This document shows, piece after piece, positions 3,930 to 12,468 of a stretch of 40,086 nucleotides of DNA. Numbering within the stretch: position 1 is the stretch's first letter; every line of letters begins with the position of its first letter. The position numbers and the translations under genes were made by a program. The notes beneath the pieces are model-generated. The model was not told the origin of the DNA and did not search any database. It saw only the letters and a list, made by a program, of their open reading frames with translations. Source of the DNA: a virus; the IMG/VR virus record IMGVR_UViG_3300046169_000008, positions 1 to 40,086 of that record. The stretch is one strand, 5' to 3'.

Positions 3930-4193
3930 TTATGACGGTTTAGGGTGAGCCTGCTTCACGGCTAAAATCTTAGTTTTCCAAGCATCAAGACCGTTGTGAT
4001 AGATGTCATCAAGTTGATCTTCTATGCTTGGGTATGCTGCGGCACGAGATTCTTTATAAGCGTGTGCGGCAACCTCTGCATCAACCGCTGCTTCATCATA
4101 ATCAACGACATTGCCATCTGCATCATAGGCAACAAAATCCACAGTTGTAGCAACATTTGGATATAGCTTGTGTATTGCTTCCAGCTTATGCAT
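3930..4193 (-). CDS. Small tail-fibre-associated conserved protein
   Basis: An 87-residue protein. The C-terminal half carries YPSIEDQLDDIYHNGLDAWK, a motif seen in many small proteins downstream of tail fibre genes in marine phages (phrases of the type 'YPSI-DQLD-iyh-G'). Its start overlaps the end of the 930-residue fibre gene by 8 nt, so translation is probably coupled. A role in fibre assembly or as a fibre chaperone is inference from position and from the recurrence of this motif; no enzymatic residues are evident. Confidence 0.72.
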   Translation of the reverse strand: MHKLEAIHKLYPNVATTVDFVAYDADGNVVDYDEAAVDAEVAAHAYKESRAAAYPSIEDQLDDIYHNGLDAWKTKILAVKQAHPKPS

Positions 4194-6978
4194 TGTCTAT
4201 CTCCATTAAAATCATGATTGAAGCACCATCTGATGCGTTGACATAATGTGTCCCTCCGCCATCGTAACTTATTTTATAAGTAAGCGCAGATGTGCTGTTT
4301 GGGCTATCAACCCAATAGAAAGGATGAACACACTGATTCGAGGAGTTAAATCTAAAATACTGGTATTCTCCGAGTTGAGTTCCATTCCTATACCTATAGT
4401 ATTCTGCCCCACCATCGTACTCTGTGGAAATCTGGCCCATCATTATTATTTTAGAAGTTGTTGCAGTTGGGGTAATGGTGGCACTTACCGCATCTATTTT
4501 TACACCAGCACTTCCACTGACCTGTGACTGGTTTATGGTAGAAACGACCTGCAAAACCTTGCCTCCCCCAGCACCACCAATGCCTGTCCAAGTACCACTT
4601 GAGTCACAGTGCGCCCTTACGTTACCATCCCCATCCGACAACACGATGTTGTTGCTTGAGGTGCGGATGTCCAAGCCGTTTTCATTGCCGTTGTAGCGTC
4701 CTATGATGGTGTTTCTATTGCCAGATTGCATTTGATTACCAGCACCATCACCTACAAAAGTGTTGGAAGTTCCTGTGCTGTAGTATCCAGCAAGACGCCC
4801 AAGATAAGCATTTCTCTCGCCCGTACTATTAGTGTACCCCGCCTGATACCCTACCGCAGTGTTGTTGCTTGCGGTGGTGTTGGAGTACAAAGCAGAATCA
4901 CCAATCGCAACATTGGTGGTGCCTGTAGTATTGGAGGTCATAGCACCACTGCCCAAAGCAGAGTTGGACGCACCTGTTGTATTTGCCCCAAGAGCAGAGT
5001 TACCTACGGCTGTATTTTCATTTGCAGTGGTGTTCGCATCAAGCGCAAGTCTACCAATAGCCGTGTTTTGTGAACCTGTAGTATTACTATACCCAGCTTG
5101 ATAGCCAACAGCAGTGTTGTTGGATGCGGTGGTGTTGGTTTCTAAAGCAGATCGACCAATAGCTACGTTATTTCCACCAGTAGCGTTTGAGTACAATGCA
5201 GCACTACCTATCGCTATATTATTTGAAGCCGATGTATTAGAATATGCCGCCCTATCACCAAGAGCCACATTATACTGTCCGCCACCATTTGTACGTAAGG
5301 CAGTATTACCAAGAGATGTATTTCTTTCACCCGAAGTATTACCATACCCCGCTTGATACCCCACAGCGGTGTTGTAGGATGCGGTGGTGTTGGCTTCTAG
5401 AGCCTCACGACCAACAGCAGTGTTATTTGCTCCAGTCGTGTTAAAGTGCAACGCTTGATAGCCTAAAGCACTGTTGTTATTAGCTGTCGTATTGTTAGCT
5501 AGTGCCTGACGACCAACAGCTACGTTTTCTTCACCAGTCGTATTATCATAGAGTGACTGATACCCAACTGCTGTGTTGTTGCTTGCGGTGGTGTTGGACT
5601 GGAGTGCATAAGAACCGTAAGCCGTGTTGTACTGACCAGTAGTGTTTGCAGTTAACGCTATATAGCCTGAAGCAACATTGTAGCCGCCAGTTGTATTTGC
5701 ATACAATGCATTATAACCAAGAGCAGTATTAAGAAGCCCACTAGTGTTACTATACAGTGTTTTATGACCAACTGCGGTATGACCATTTACGGTACTTGCA
5801 GAGTATAATGACTGATAACCTACCGCAGTGTTGTTGCTTGCGGTGGTGTTATTCGTAAGTGCATCACGACCCAATGCGGTATTATATGACCCCGTTGTGC
5901 TTCGCTCTAAGGCTCCCTCACCGACTGCAACTAGTTCTGCACCTGTTGTATTAGCTGCTAAAGTGTTCATGCCCACGGCAGTATTATAAGAAGCTGTCGT
6001 ATTGTTACCTAAGGAAAACCCGCCAATGGCTACATTAGATGCCCCAGTTGTGTTGTCTTGTAAGGCTGTATGGCCCAAAACAGTGTTGTAAGACGCTGTA
6101 GTATTCGCATACCCTGCGGATTTACCAATAAAGTTATTGCCAGTTCCAGTAGTATTACTATACCCAGCTTGATACCCAACCGCAGTGTTGTTAGATGCGG
6201 TGGTGTTAGCTTGTAAAGCTGAACGACCCAATGCCACATTATTAGAGCCTGTTGTGTTGCTGTCTAAAGCACCCACCCCTACTGAAATTGTATCTGAGCC
6301 TGTTGTATTTGCTAACATTGAATTGAAGCCAAGCGAAACGTTGTTTTGCCCGCTTGTGTTTGCTGTCAAAGACGCAGAACCAATTGCTGTGTTTCTTGAC
6401 CCACTTGTAAGCGCATCTAAAGCAGTATTGCCCAACGCCACGTTGCCTGTACCAACAGGATAATTCCCATCCAGCTTGATTGTGCCGCCATCGATTGACA
6501 CGTTGCCTGTAAAGGCTGCGCCTGTTTCCATTGCAGCGCCAGCAGCGGCCACGTTAGTCGCATCAGTTACGTCAGCGCCAGCTTCAATACCCGCTAGTTT
6601 GCTCTGCTCTGCATCACTGAACTCGTTAGTGTCAGCATTGCTTTCATACGCAGTCTTAATCTCAGCGGCAGTTTGATCTGCTGTAGCACCAGCCTCAATG
6701 CCATCTAGCTTAGTGCCATCTGCTGATACATCACGGCCATCTACGTTTCCAGATACGACCAGATTGGGAACTGTGAGATCACCAGTCATGGTATCGCCAG
6801 AGGTATCTACTTTACCTGTAATGGAGCTTTCTTTAGCTAAGGGGTGACCACCCGCAGTAGAGCCATCATGGACAACAACTGTATCTTTTGTTGTATCAAT
6901 AGTGAGTTCACCCTCAGCACCTGTAAAGGTGGAGTGTTCTGTAGTAGTCCCACGGCGTCTTTTAATCTGCGTTGTCAT
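4186..6978 (-). CDS. Repeat-rich tail fibre / receptor-binding protein
   Basis: A 930-residue fibre. Residues 1-50 (KRRRGTTTEHSTFTGAEGEL, then TVVVHDGSTAGGHPL) resemble the N-terminal domain of major tropism determinant proteins. A coiled stretch with LDGIEAGA repeats follows (about 88-150). Residues ~179-740 are built of about 24-residue units such as NNTAVGYQAGYSNTTG, like the left-handed beta-roll heads of trimeric adhesins and many phage fibres. The last ~125 residues are a non-repetitive globular tip with Tyr-rich loops, the likely receptor-binding knob. It directly follows the coiled-coil fibre gene with an ATGA overlap, so the two may form one composite fibre. Confidence 0.88.
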   Translation of the reverse strand: MTTQIKRRRGTTTEHSTFTGAEGELTIDTTKDTVVVHDGSTAGGHPLAKESSITGKVDTSGDTMTGDLTVPNLVVSGNVDGRDVSADGTKLDGIEAGATADQTAAEIKTAYESNADTNEFSDAEQSKLAGIEAGADVTDATNVAAAGAAMETGAAFTGNVSIDGGTIKLDGNYPVGTGNVALGNTALDALTSGSRNTAIGSASLTANTSGQNNVSLGFNSMLANTTGSDTISVGVGALDSNTTGSNNVALGRSALQANTTASNNTAVGYQAGYSNTTGTGNNFIGKSAGYANTTASYNTVLGHTALQDNTTGASNVAIGGFSLGNNTTASYNTAVGMNTLAANTTGAELVAVGEGALERSTTGSYNTALGRDALTNNTTASNNTAVGYQSLYSASTVNGHTAVGHKTLYSNTSGLLNTALGYNALYANTTGGYNVASGYIALTANTTGQYNTAYGSYALQSNTTASNNTAVGYQSLYDNTTGEENVAVGRQALANNTTANNNSALGYQALHFNTTGANNTAVGREALEANTTASYNTAVGYQAGYGNTSGERNTSLGNTALRTNGGGQYNVALGDRAAYSNTSASNNIAIGSAALYSNATGGNNVAIGRSALETNTTASNNTAVGYQAGYSNTTGSQNTAIGRLALDANTTANENTAVGNSALGANTTGASNSALGSGAMTSNTTGTTNVAIGDSALYSNTTASNNTAVGYQAGYTNSTGERNAYLGRLAGYYSTGTSNTFVGDGAGNQMQSGNRNTIIGRYNGNENGLDIRTSSNNIVLSDGDGNVRAHCDSSGTWTGIGGAGGGKVLQVVSTINQSQVSGSAGVKIDAVSATITPTATTSKIIMMGQISTEYDGGAEYYRYRNGTQLGEYQYFRFNSSNQCVHPFYWVDSPNSTSALTYKISYDGGGTHYVNASDGASIMILMEIDNA
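4850..6460 (-). repeat. Tandem repeat array inside the fibre gene
   Basis: The DNA encoding the central fibre region contains many near-identical units of about 72 bp, typified on the + strand by ctgataccc...gcagtgttgttgct and ggtggtgttgg. The encoded cores are NNTAVGYQ, NTALG and NNVAIG, separated by NTT/NTSG. Some copies (around 4850, 5120, 5370, 5570, 5830 and 6190) are almost identical at DNA level while intervening units are diverged, suggesting a higher-order period of about 240-280 bp. Unit boundaries are approximate. Confidence 0.8.
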
Positions 6979-8869: not shown

Positions 8870-8899
8870 TTGTAATTGTGACACATGTTATGTTATACT
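8870..8899 (+). promoter_or_regulatory. Candidate forward promoter for the early block
   Basis: TTGTAA (8870-8875) and TATACT (8894-8899) are 18 bp apart on the forward strand, with TTATAC one base earlier giving 17 bp. It is the best forward-strand match I find between 8557 and 9475, but would leave a leader of about 570 nt before the first early gene. That leader includes the possible RNA structure and two hairpins. Confidence 0.4.
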
Positions 8900-9251
8900 G
8901 TAACAATTTAGATGCGGTGTTAAACCCAAAGCACTAGCCACATACCTTAACCCACTGAAACAATTACAATAACTAGTTAACTCAACCAATATTCTTTTAT
9001 TCCCATTATATAGTCTTAAACCACCGGGATAAATTAATTTGTAAATCGTGCATTTTTTACTTGAACCCCGAATCGAATCGTGCTCTTTATTGGTCATCGG
9101 CAAACGAACACCGGATCAACCGCCACGGCAAATGAATCCAACATGAGTTACCGAGCAAGGCCTAGCAATCAAGAGGGCCACGGAATACAGACTAAATTAA
9201 GACTTGACTAAGAATACAGAATATGCAGACTGAATAACAAGACGACACATA

Positions 9252-9331
9252 GACTAGCTTAAGGACAGCGTCCAAGATACGGGGCGGTAGAACGGTGACT
9301 TGAATCAGCCCGTCAAATGCTGGGGCTAGTC
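9252..9331 (+). ncRNA. Possible branched structured RNA in the early leader
   Basis: GACTAGC (9252-9258) pairs perfectly with GCTAGTC (9325-9331), closing an 80-nt region. Inside it GGAC/GTCC (9263-9273) can form a small hairpin and ACGGGGC (9279-9285) can pair with GCCCGT (9308-9313) with one bulge. The 7-bp closing stem is tRNA-like in length, but no T-loop, D-loop or plausible anticodon arm can be placed, so I do not call a tRNA. Evidence is base pairing in one sequence only. Confidence 0.3.
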
Positions 9332-9335
9332 GTGT

Positions 9336-9389
9336 TTGATTGATACAGAGGCATCTTTTCCTCCCGATAGGTGTCTCTTTATCAATCAA
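9336..9389 (+). repeat. Intergenic hairpin copy 0 (divergent, longest stem)
   Basis: Arms 9336-9355 and 9370-9389 pair over 20 positions with one C/T mismatch and two G-U type pairs, around a 14-nt loop. The inner arm (GAGGCATC with GGTGTCTC) is the class B form of the later copies. AGAGGAG follows, then an ATG at 9400 opening a four-codon ORF that ends at the TGA inside hairpin copy 1. Confidence 0.8.
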
Positions 9390-9408
9390 CCAGAGGAGAA
9401 TGAATTGG

Positions 9409-9458
9409 GGTTGACTTATCGGTGGCACCTTGCAAGGGTGTCACTAGATAAACCAAAC
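9409..9458 (+). repeat. Intergenic hairpin copy 1 (class A)
   Basis: Starts with GGTTGACTTATC, has inner arms GTGGCACC and GGTGTCAC around a short TTGCAAG loop region, and ends with GATAAACCAA. A GAAAGGA ribosome site and the ATG at 9475 follow directly. Confidence 0.88.
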
Positions 9459-9474
9459 CGAAAGGATAAGACCA

Positions 9475-9702
9475 ATGGTCACACTGACACACGTAACCGA
9501 AGTAGACACAATGCTAGAGGCGGTGAACATGGTTAAAGGTGCCTTATACGTTCCAGAATGGGTGTATAACACTGATAACCTAGACGCTTTCATCGTATCC
9601 ACAAAAGCACCTTATCACGGTCGGATATACGTTGACACTATGACGGGGGAAATCCGTGACGCCACCAAAGAGGAACACGATAGGTTTTGCATAGAGGGTT
9701 GA
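9475..9702 (+). CDS. Small early hypothetical protein (hairpin-flanked)
   Basis: A 75-residue protein (MVTLTHVTEVDTMLEAVNMV...), soluble in character, with IYVDTMTGEIRDATKEEHDR near the C-terminus. The ATG follows GAAAGGATAAGACCA. The stop codon TGA (9700-9702) is part of hairpin copy 2, so gene end and hairpin start are fused. Family not recognised. As one of the first genes of the forward block it is likely expressed early and may act on the host; this is positional inference only. Confidence 0.7.
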   Translation: MVTLTHVTEVDTMLEAVNMVKGALYVPEWVYNTDNLDAFIVSTKAPYHGRIYVDTMTGEIRDATKEEHDRFCIEG

Positions 9703-9745
9703 CTTATCAGGAGACATCTGCAATGGTGTCTCTCAATAAACCAAC
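9697..9745 (+). repeat. Intergenic hairpin copy 2 (class B)
   Basis: GGTTGACTTATC, then inner arms GAGACATC (9711-9718) and GGTGTCTC (9725-9732) around TGCAAT, then AATAAACCAAC. The upstream gene stop TGA is within the left arm, and AAGGAG plus the ATG at 9761 follow. Confidence 0.9.
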
Positions 9746-9760
9746 TCAAGGAGTGAGACT

Positions 9761-9976
9761 ATGGAAATCGAAAGAGTGGAAGTAACTTTGAAAACATGCA
9801 AGAGCATGACAGATCAGCTGGAAAACCTAGGGGCTAAAATTATAACTGAAAGCCTAGGTGACCAGATAGTTAAAAAAGCCCAGAACAGTAAGGGGAAGAC
9901 TTTGTTCAAGGCTATTGTGTACGATAACGAATCGGTGCTGGTATCGTATCCAAAGGGACTGTTTGACAAAATGTAA
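9761..9976 (+). CDS. Small early hypothetical protein (hairpin-flanked)
   Basis: A 71-residue basic protein (MEIERVEVTLKTCKSMTDQL...) with a predicted beta-alpha-beta flavour and one Cys. The start follows CAAGGAGTGAGACT, an ideal Shine-Dalgarno spacing, and this AAGGAG-to-ATG module is almost identical before the gene at 10045. The TAA stop lies 5 nt before hairpin copy 3. No family recognised; probable early gene. Confidence 0.7.
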   Translation: MEIERVEVTLKTCKSMTDQLENLGAKIITESLGDQIVKKAQNSKGKTLFKAIVYDNESVLVSYPKGLFDKM

Positions 9977-9981
9977 GAAGG

Positions 9982-10031
9982 GGTTGACTTATCAGGAGAC
10001 ATCTGCAAGGGTGTCTCTCAATAAACCAACC
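9982..10031 (+). repeat. Intergenic hairpin copy 3 (class B)
   Basis: Near-identical to copy 2: GGTTG pairs with CAACC on the outside, GAGACATC (9996-10003) with GGTGTCTC (10010-10017) inside, loop TGCAAG. It begins 6 nt after the upstream TAA and is followed by AAGGAG and the ATG at 10045. Confidence 0.9.
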
Positions 10032-10044
10032 AAGGAGTGAGACT

Positions 10045-10260
10045 ATGACATATAGAATTAACATTGCAGAAGGCAAAGGCCGCAACTGGAATGATACGGG
10101 CTTGCAGTACAGTCATTACTATGCTGTCGAGACAGACTATGAGGAGACAATGATTAGAATTGTCGAGGACTTGAGGCAGGTATATCCATACCCGGCTTAT
10201 GACATCACGGTGACTAAGTCTACTACAACTAGCACAAGATTGCCGATGGATTTGGGTTGA
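10045..10260 (+). CDS. Small early hypothetical protein (hairpin-flanked)
   Basis: A 71-residue protein (MTYRINIAEGKGRNWNDTGL...) rich in Tyr and Thr, ending in a Leu-Gly just before the TGA that belongs to hairpin copy 4. The start is set by CAAGGAGTGAGACT. There are no membrane segments. Not similar to its neighbours at protein level, although their upstream DNA is nearly identical. Function unknown. Confidence 0.7.
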   Translation: MTYRINIAEGKGRNWNDTGLQYSHYYAVETDYEETMIRIVEDLRQVYPYPAYDITVTKSTTTSTRLPMDLG

Positions 10261-10304
10261 CTTATCGGTGGCACTCTGCAAGGGTGTCACTAGATAACTT
10301 AATC
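10255..10304 (+). repeat. Intergenic hairpin copy 4 (class A)
   Basis: Left arm GGTTGACTTATC, inner arms GTGGCAC and GTGTCAC, right arm GATAACTTAATC. The right arm differs from copies 1 and 5, yet most outer pairs are kept through G-U pairing. The stop TGA of the upstream gene (10258-10260) is inside the left arm; CAAGGAG and the ATG at 10318 follow. Confidence 0.88.
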
Positions 10305-10317
10305 AAGGAGCAAGACT

Positions 10318-10902
10318 ATGCAATTTGTACGCAACATCAACGCAGTGTTTAAGCAAGCTCAACCACATGAGATAAAGCACGGCAAGACATGGTATCGTGA
10401 CGCATTGAAAGAGTGTGAGGACATGGCGGCATGTTATCAACTGCCAGTCCATATCGTAGCAGGAGTAGTGGCAGCATTGTCACCGACTAACAAGTGGGAA
10501 CGTAACCTAGTCGATGCAGCCAACATGTGCAAAGTGTTTACAGATGGAGGATATGTAGAAGATTGTGCTCCTTGCACGTACACCAAGATGCGAGACAAGG
10601 CATGGTCTATCTTGCAATCCATGCCACATAATGTAGAGGATGTAGCTTTTATCCTCAATGGGCCTAAGATAACAGACTTCTACCTATGCATCATGGGGCA
10701 TGATGTTTGTGTAATTGATGGTCACGCATGGGGCATTGCCTTCAAGGACAGACGCAACATGCAGGACGTACCAAGTATCGGTAAGCGGATGCGTAAGGAA
10801 TTGCAGCAGGCCTACAGCAGAGCAGGCAAGAAGCATGGTCTCACCGCCTATCAGATGCAGGCCGCAACATGGGTCACATGGAAGCGCATCCACAATGTCT
10901 AA
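10318..10902 (+). CDS. Conserved phage protein, possibly HhH-glycosylase-like
   Basis: A 194-residue protein. The stretch VAALSPTNKWERNLVDAAN (about 50-68), a later KITDFYLCIMG and VCVIDGHAWGIAF (about 130-142) form a pattern I have seen in phage hypothetical proteins (I associate it with DUF7178; recollection, not a search). The order of a helical 'aLSP.n.W..n..da' segment, a 'K...Fy..I' segment and an aspartate in 'v.iD.Ha' recalls the layout of HhH-GPD DNA glycosylases, so a base-excision or modified-DNA role is possible. It is flanked by hairpin copies 4 and 5. Confident as a gene, weak on function. Confidence 0.6.
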   Translation: MQFVRNINAVFKQAQPHEIKHGKTWYRDALKECEDMAACYQLPVHIVAGVVAALSPTNKWERNLVDAANMCKVFTDGGYVEDCAPCTYTKMRDKAWSILQSMPHNVEDVAFILNGPKITDFYLCIMGHDVCVIDGHAWGIAFKDRRNMQDVPSIGKRMRKELQQAYSRAGKKHGLTAYQMQAATWVTWKRIHNV

Positions 10903-10908
10903 GAAGTA

Positions 10909-10957
10909 GGTTGACTTATCGGTGGCACTCTGTAAGGGTGTCACTAGATAAACCAAC
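10909..10957 (+). repeat. Intergenic hairpin copy 5 (class A)
   Basis: GGTTGACTTATC, inner arms GTGGCAC and GTGTCAC, loop with TGTAAG, then GATAAACCAAC. It begins 7 nt after the TAA of the 194-residue protein gene and is followed by CAAGGAG and the ATG at 10971. It is the last copy; later gene junctions lack the motif. Confidence 0.9.
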
Positions 10958-10970
10958 AAGGAGTAAGACA

Positions 10971-11204
10971 ATGGAAAGACAAACAAACATAATGGTGTCA
11001 GCTGACATTGAAATGATGTTTGCGAGTGGCACTGTCGAAACATTTAGGTTGTCAGATATACCTTGCACTTGGGTATGGGATGAATCATCTAGGGAAGCGG
11101 CAGAATACTGGGCAGCATGTGACCATGTGTCAAACAATTATAAATTCGATTGGATGTCGATAAAGAGTTGGACGGGTTCGCCAGTCAAGAAAGAGAATGT
11201 CTGA
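10971..11204 (+). CDS. Small early hypothetical protein
   Basis: A 77-residue protein (MERQTNIMVSADIEMMFASG...) rich in Trp and acidic residues, with DIPCTWVWDESSREAAEYWA in the middle. The ATG at 10971 is fixed by the AAGGAGTAAGACA module after hairpin copy 5; an open frame continues upstream but through the hairpin. It is the last gene of the hairpin-linked series. Function not recognised. Confidence 0.68.
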   Translation: MERQTNIMVSADIEMMFASGTVETFRLSDIPCTWVWDESSREAAEYWAACDHVSNNYKFDWMSIKSWTGSPVKKENV

Positions 11205-12378: not shown

Positions 12379-12390
12379 TGTGAAAGGGGG

Positions 12391-12418
12391 TAGACGTATC
12401 GGAATTGTTTGGTATAAT
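12391..12418 (+). promoter_or_regulatory. Candidate promoter for thyX
   Basis: A perfect -10 box TATAAT (12413-12418) lies 16 bp after TAGACG (12391-12396), a partial -35 match (TTGACA would be consensus). The -35 side reads GGTAGACGTATCGG, which resembles the GGTTGACTTATCGG start of the hairpin repeats. It is the only 90-bp gap in this part of the block. Confidence 0.45.
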
Positions 12419-12468
12419 AAGTATTACGGATGCCCCCTGATACAGAGGCAAGACAAGGAGAGCAAGAT

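Follow-up and report, generated by a model that had tools for sequence, protein, structure and literature searches.

A family of stop-to-start hairpins as the apparent seam of a single-gene cassette array in cobavirus-like phages

The early RNase III sites of phage T7 (R0.3, R0.5, R1, R1.1 and R1.3) are irregular hairpins of ~45–60 nt, each lying between an early-gene stop codon and the next ribosome-binding site (RBS), in the part of the genome that enters the cell first. When we folded them at the approximate positions given in the literature, they showed a two-part stem with an internal loop. In cluster K mycobacteriophages, the ESAS are imperfect inverted repeats of 17 bp that are coupled to a 13-bp SAS (GGGATAGGAGCCC) and lie on the gene-sense strand, just ahead of the RBS and start of numerous non-structural genes that are unrelated to each other (PMC3203893). 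The PeSLs of T4-like phages (Arbiol 2010; Comeau 2014), as far as the accounts in PMC4503421 and PMC5931544 describe them, combine an early promoter with a terminator stem-loop, recur in a gene-plastic early region and have been proposed to provide the homology that mediates modular shuffling. Integrons hold single-gene cassettes separated by imperfect hairpins, the attC sites.

The hairpins described here share features with all four systems: the size, irregularity, two-part stem and stop-to-RBS position of the T7 sites; the gene-sense inverted repeats of ESAS, placed upstream of many unrelated genes; the repetition in a plastic early region that characterizes PeSLs; and the single-gene cassettes of attC arrays. 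An earlier note on this DNA had named ESAS as the nearest analogue. Its anatomical part stands, as the inverted repeat lies directly upstream of gene starts, but the defining SAS motif is absent from the window, with 0 matches at up to 2 mismatches. ESAS also stay with their own gene family (PMC3203893), whereas the element described here changes partners.

Six related hairpins among the early genes of a cobavirus relative

We analyzed a 40,086-bp uncultured virus contig from an IMG/VR record (hereafter the window, at its full length). Its DNA polymerase is 75–76% identical to the DNA polymerases of SIO1, ICBM1, ICBM3 and P12053L, and the window was therefore placed among the cobaviruses (Zobellviridae, Cobavirinae) – podoviruses that infect marine roseobacters and, unlike T7, have no RNA polymerase of their own (PMC6918029). 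Among the Roseobacter cobaviruses to which the window is related are SIO1, ICBM1 and CRP-5. It encodes a T7-type endonuclease I (PF05367) and an exonuclease; an integrase of the tyrosine recombinase type (PF00589) is absent from the contig, with 14 of 14 controls positive, and no phage-encoded RNase III was found in the window. On the – strand, positions 4186–6978 carry the gene for a 930-aa tail protein that has an Mtd_N (major tropism determinant N-terminal) domain.

A single family of ~50-nt hairpins is represented six times at positions 9333–10958, at the beginning of the rightward early genes. ICBM1 has annotated genome ends, and the position that matches the array comes after its direct terminal repeat – which, by extension from the ICBM1 ends, would make the array genes of the window the first into the cell. 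A candidate early promoter with an extended –10 type element (TGTTATACT) lies at 8891–8899 (+ strand), and the early transcript would start from it. TGTTATAMT or a close variant is kept at the matching place in ICBM1, SIO1 and P12053L, the ICBM1 counterpart sitting within the annotated direct terminal repeat. Upstream of the array is a conserved non-coding leader (9094–9332, + strand), in which TCATCGGCAARCRAACACCG and other blocks are invariant in 10 sequences including ICBM1 and SIO1; the blocks that are invariant from the window to these two phages include TCATCGGCAARCRAACACCG and GAGCAAGSCCTAGCAA. The leader is predicted to form a long-range stem (GACTAGC/GCTAGTC), has no Rfam match and appears to be missing from P12053L.

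All six hairpins reported by the earlier note were confirmed, with fitting ends (9389/9391, 9458, 9746, 10031, 10304 and 10958) and fold z-scores of –7.3, –4.2, –4.8, –4.9, –7.0 and –5.3 for copies 1–6; for each, 0–1 of 200 shuffles folded equally well. The statement that they occur nowhere else also held. A covariance scan without filters across all 40 kb returned the six + strand copies and their antisense images, found no seventh copy and gave a next-best match of E = 0.42.

Hairpin 1 (9333–9391; 32.3 bits, E = 2e-5) forms the fixed left boundary of the array. It is a diverged member that keeps the usual stem length (21–22 bp) with a different lower stem (TTGATTGATA/TATCAATCAA) and has a longer loop containing UCCUCCC. 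Hairpins 2–6 are mutually 69–96% identical; GGTTGACTTATC, previously assigned to copies 1–5, is actually common to these. A type A core (GGTGGCAC/GTGTCACT) is found in hairpin 2 (9408–9458; 74.1 bits), in hairpin 5 (10254–10304; 67.1 bits), which has a variant 3' end and contains the stop codon of gene F5, and in hairpin 6 (10908–10958; 70.9 bits). A type B core (GGAGACATC/GGTGTCTCT) is found in hairpin 3 (9696–9746; 57.2 bits), which contains the stop codon of gene F20, and in hairpin 4 (9981–10031; 62.9 bits). A further hairpin before thyX (12385–12440; AGGGGGTAGACGTATCGG...CCCCCT), which is like GGTTGACTTATCGG at 2 mismatches, matched none of the covariance models and is either unrelated or a remote relative.

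Hairpins 1 and 2 are separated by a gene-less gap of ~16–18 nt (9392–9407, + strand) that holds an RBS remnant and the start of a mini-ORF (ATGAATTGGGGTTGA; ATG-AAT-TGG-GGT-TGA). The gap recurs in the related locus L010 and is an apparent empty cassette. The cassette genes of the window, all on the + strand, are F20 (9475–9702; 75 aa), F6 (9761–9976; 71 aa; 76% identical to CRP-5 gp01), F5 (10045–10260; 71 aa), F1 (10318–10902; 194 aa; DUF7178/phrog_3842) and F21 (10971–11204; 77 aa). F20, F5, F6 and F21 are ORFans; F20 has no PHROG or Pfam match and occurs elsewhere in L010 only. Contrary to the picture of hairpins at consecutive gene junctions, copy 1 stands behind the conserved non-coding leader and not behind a gene. 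Of three copies said to hold the upstream stop inside the left arm, copies 3 and 5 do so (stops ending at 9702 and 10260), while in copy 2 the stop is only that of the mini-ORF. Similarly, an AAGGAG-to-ATG module is common to copies 3–6 but not to copies 1 and 2 (AGAGGAG, CGAAAGG).

In relatives, the slots hold GP88 (PF17338) and a gene with a weak S-adenosylmethionine (SAM) lyase match (PF23780; 28.2 bits, cut-off 28). An early gene family with such a borderline lyase match lies behind or beside hairpins at L042 1535–1918, L044 314–712 and L054 2569–2985, and a SAM-lyase-like gene adjoins such hairpins in ICBM1, P12053L and L054. SAM lyase is the T3 gp0.3-type anti-restriction enzyme, for which T3 uses its first early slot. 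The cassette cargo is in line with host-takeover functions and may include anti-defence genes.

Conservation of the fold and its setting between cistrons

Among 34 distinct copies, 95.3% of pair cells were paired and 10 of 19 pairs had changes on both sides. The covariation score was 0.295 against 0.163 for shuffled data (0 of 500 shuffles reached it), and slid structures all scored far worse. This alignment was fitted to the covariance model; hence 18 diverse copies were independently re-aligned with MAFFT, and RNAalifold predicted the same stem with 12 of 20 pairs compensated. The opposed bases comprised 497 Watson-Crick, 115 G-U, 7 A-C and 23 other pairs. If selection acted on the palindrome as double-stranded DNA, G-T and A-C oppositions would be expected at the same frequency, because a G-T on one strand corresponds to an A-C on the other. 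The observed excess of G-U over A-C, 16-fold, therefore indicates that the sense strand is read as RNA (or as a single strand), and it disfavors the DNA operator that had been among the roles first suggested. Selection on the sense RNA fold is strongly supported by these patterns of substitution.

A stem of ~21 layers, or two helical turns, is kept (5' arm 21.9 ± 1.4 nt), similar in size to the stems of the T7 sites, while the loop (3–14 nt) and parts of the stem vary; fold stability is about –20 kcal/mol. Several features are conserved beyond pairing: GGTGTCAC in the right arm, TTAT/ATAA, an invariant G-U pair beside a bulged A and invariant C-G/A-U pairs in mid-stem. These bases would leave room for a specific RNA-binding protein. 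They are what one would expect if a phage or host protein, or RNA polymerase as at the HK022 put sites, recognized each hairpin as an RNA operator or antitermination signal and so controlled translation or elongation of the early operon. The repetition of the element, as for co-regulation, and the small winged-helix proteins encoded near the array in some relatives (ICBM1 gp7, PF14090) would also suit such recognition. We nevertheless consider it unlikely: the loop, where such recognition usually takes place, is free to vary in both length and sequence, the stem core differs, with compensation, among the type A, type B and ICBM variants, antitermination would not need one copy per gene, and the analysis turned up no candidate RNA-binding protein.

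Almost every copy is flanked by a stop codon upstream and an RBS downstream. The stop is found between 7 nt inside the hairpin and 9 nt before it (–7 to +9 nt) in 34 of 37 cases, and most copies end 12–18 nt before the start codon. No T-run or U-tract follows the stems of the window copies; each is followed by an RBS instead, and an intrinsic terminator was rejected on these grounds. Sigma-70 promoters in the repeat were likewise rejected, as promoter-like sites showed no excess over shuffles and none fell inside the repeat unit.

The tight stop-hairpin-RBS spacing, the stable fold and the lack of a terminator would all be compatible with a passive cistron insulator or stabilizer of 3'/5' ends, which would work without cleavage by blocking exonucleases, by halting the drift of ribosomes from one gene to the next or by shielding the RBS from the coding sequence ahead of it. 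However, the predicted unpaired fraction of the RBS was 0.558 with the hairpin and 0.569 after its in silico removal. Sequestration or opening of the RBS was rejected on this prediction, a direct translational effect is not supported, and a fixed two-turn length would be unnecessary for an exonuclease blocker. We regard passive insulation as a plausible but rather unlikely account.

Distribution of the family and exchange of single genes

A covariance model built from eight copies (model R1) was run over 657 kb of related loci, over IMG/VR contigs fetched by the right-arm pattern and over contigs around the GP88 gene. The family is present in ICBM1, ICBM2, ICBM3, P12053L, CRP-5 and ~25 IMG/VR metagenomic contigs; ICBM1 has two copies. 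Of the 16 additional contigs that the right-arm pattern brought in, 14 have recognizable cobavirus genes. Covariance-model searches found no copy in SIO1, CRP-4, CRP-13, CRP-9, HMO-2011 or T7; in T7, neither model R1 nor model R2 detected sequence homology. Since several cobaviruses (SIO1, CRP-4) do without the element, it is not essential. Two HMO-2011-like phages carry one copy each – IMG/VR contig G001/L092, upstream of GP88, and isolate CRP-2, at 169–218 between the gp01 stop and the gp02 RBS, where both genes are unrelated to any cobavirus cassette. The spread of the element to HMO-2011-type phages shows that exchange takes place among phage families with hosts in common.

The core pattern had 0 matches in 84,980 bacterial and archaeal genomes, which led us to reject a host repeat (REP/ERIC-like). 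A known RNA family was rejected because the hairpin had 0 covariance-model matches in Rfam, at the gathering cut-off and at E ≤ 5. DUF7178 contigs outside the cobaviruses had no hairpin matches; the hairpin therefore belongs to the phage context and not to the DUF7178 gene, and an element bound to DUF7178 was rejected. In L078 and L089, from other marine phages, unrelated hairpins of ~20 bp occupy the same stop-to-RBS place just upstream of the GP88 start, and the stop-hairpin-RBS anatomy may be wider than the hairpin sequence family.

Likeness of copies is 0.80 within and 0.67 between genomes. The mutual identity of copies 2–6 in the window might by itself reflect a recent chance duplication of one junction in one genome, without function – the conclusion that the earlier note had tied to a lack of copies in related phages. 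We give this next to no credence: homologues across Cobavirinae and in HMO-2011-like phages form a diverged, covarying family that extends to an unrelated phage group, and they refute it.

We compared gene families around hairpins in 30 loci. What comes after hairpin 1 differs among close relatives, with five arrangements: hairpin 2 and F20 (window, L010), F5 (L007, L014, L015, L038), F6 (L008), F1/DUF7178 (L012) or F14 (L016). Homology breaks in the right arm and RBS, at window 9398|10010 against L007, 9398|9725 against L008 and 9398|10283 against L012, each with an overlap of ~28 nt that equals the right arm plus RBS. L015 and L038 agree exactly up to the ATG and then continue with DUF7178 or GP88. 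L010 and L012 lack hairpin 6 and F21 from stop to stop, with the homology blocks at 10900 and 11196 directly adjoining, and L008 joins a window-type leader and hairpin 1 to CRP-5-type replication genes. In pairwise comparisons of nine related genomes, with counts that are not independent, the junction element in both genomes holds 49 of 72 homology-block ends against ~10–17 expected. Most other ends fall at the F1 stop, in the leader or near the F1 5' end.

These comparisons strongly support the hairpin-plus-RBS as the seam of a single-gene cassette array. They also bear out the proposal that the junction is the conserved unit, and the clustering of breakpoints strengthens its proposed role as a recombination boundary at which single genes are exchanged. 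Such clustering would likewise be seen if the element worked in DNA only, with no RNA role, as a palindromic operator or as a recombination site – a cruciform cut by endonuclease I, or the target of a site-specific system. The T7-type endonuclease I that the phage encodes belongs to a family that cuts cruciforms. A DNA-only element is nonetheless very improbable, as the 115-to-7 ratio of G-U to A-C and the constant orientation to genes point to the sense RNA, there is no integrase, and most exchanges can be explained by simple homology across the right arm and RBS.

Modular shuffling in a plastic region, as proposed for PeSLs, is thus found here. Unlike PeSLs as the accounts above describe them, the hairpin copies have neither an above-chance promoter nor a T-run, and the repeated unit is stop-hairpin-RBS within one operon. 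Unlike attC sites, they come with no integrase and, by eye, no R''/R' box arrangement, include a conserved RBS and show selection on the sense RNA. The T7 sites differ in another way: the junctions described here resemble one another closely enough to act as seams for exchange. Identities as terminator, ESAS, PeSL, attC or host repeat were all rejected. By comparison with these systems, the hairpins would constitute a new RNA element family whose working resembles the T7 processing sites, with cleavage putative, and whose genomic role resembles that of PeSLs, and which lacks a defining feature of each of ESAS, PeSL and attC.

A putative processing signal at exchangeable junctions

We propose that the hairpins are T7-like intercistronic sites of RNase III-type processing or stabilization that also serve as a recombination seam and keep the cistrons independent. 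We put the probability of this reading at about 0.6, with cleavage as its putative part. In this reading, the six hairpins represent one sense-strand RNA element, borne by the phage, that sets the cistrons of the early mRNA apart. Transcription would start near 8900 from a host-polymerase promoter, and each hairpin folds in the transcript into ~21 layers, equal to two turns of A-form helix, interrupted at fixed places by an internal loop or bulge. RNase III-type processing or stabilization at the hairpins, as between T7 early genes, would give each cistron its own protected ends and its own RBS, such that it could work whatever its neighbors. Ordinary homologous recombination, with endonuclease I and the exonuclease, would insert, delete or swap single genes at the junctions, without breaking expression because every gene carries the same junction. 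At the leading genome end, the array would then let host-takeover and anti-defence genes be plugged in without a recombinase. In short, one signal in the mRNA seems also to be the seam at which genes plug into the array.

RNase III-type processing had been one of the roles suggested by the earlier note; covariation and the strand-specific G-U pairs strengthen it at the mRNA level, where it stays putative. An alphaproteobacterial RNase III cleaves T7 R1.1, at atypical sites and with a preference for longer duplexes, and the S. meliloti enzyme reportedly requires a longer duplex than its E. coli counterpart (PMC6121014). Against RNase III, the stems contain G-U pairs and bulges; against RNase III alone, GGTGTCAC and TTAT/ATAA are conserved beyond pairing, which the enzyme does not require.

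More tentatively, and at somewhat less than even odds, the portable stop-hairpin-RBS module may be an undescribed RNA family that serves unrelated roseophage families as a universal cistron adaptor. Any gene would be expression-ready wherever it landed, in an integron-like but recombinase-free cassette array at the leading genome end. The proposal offers a concrete, testable answer to how lytic phages could swap small host-takeover and anti-defence genes singly while the polycistronic operon stays intact – the processing or insulating signal and the recombination homology would be the same 70 nt. The covariance model provides a handle on fast-changing early cassette arrays, and hence on new anti-host genes, in abundant marine phages.

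The UCCUCCC in the loop of hairpin 1 (9357–9370) is an anti-Shine-Dalgarno-like motif. UCCUCCC loops also occur in similar hairpins beside GP88 genes (L014 766–828, L015 1834–1894, L095 1912–1967 and L098 2687–2742), and the CCUCCUCCC loops of alphaproteobacterial sRNAs resemble the motif (PMC3927594). By analogy, it is possible that the loop forms a pseudoknot with the adjacent RBS or mimics the ribosome.
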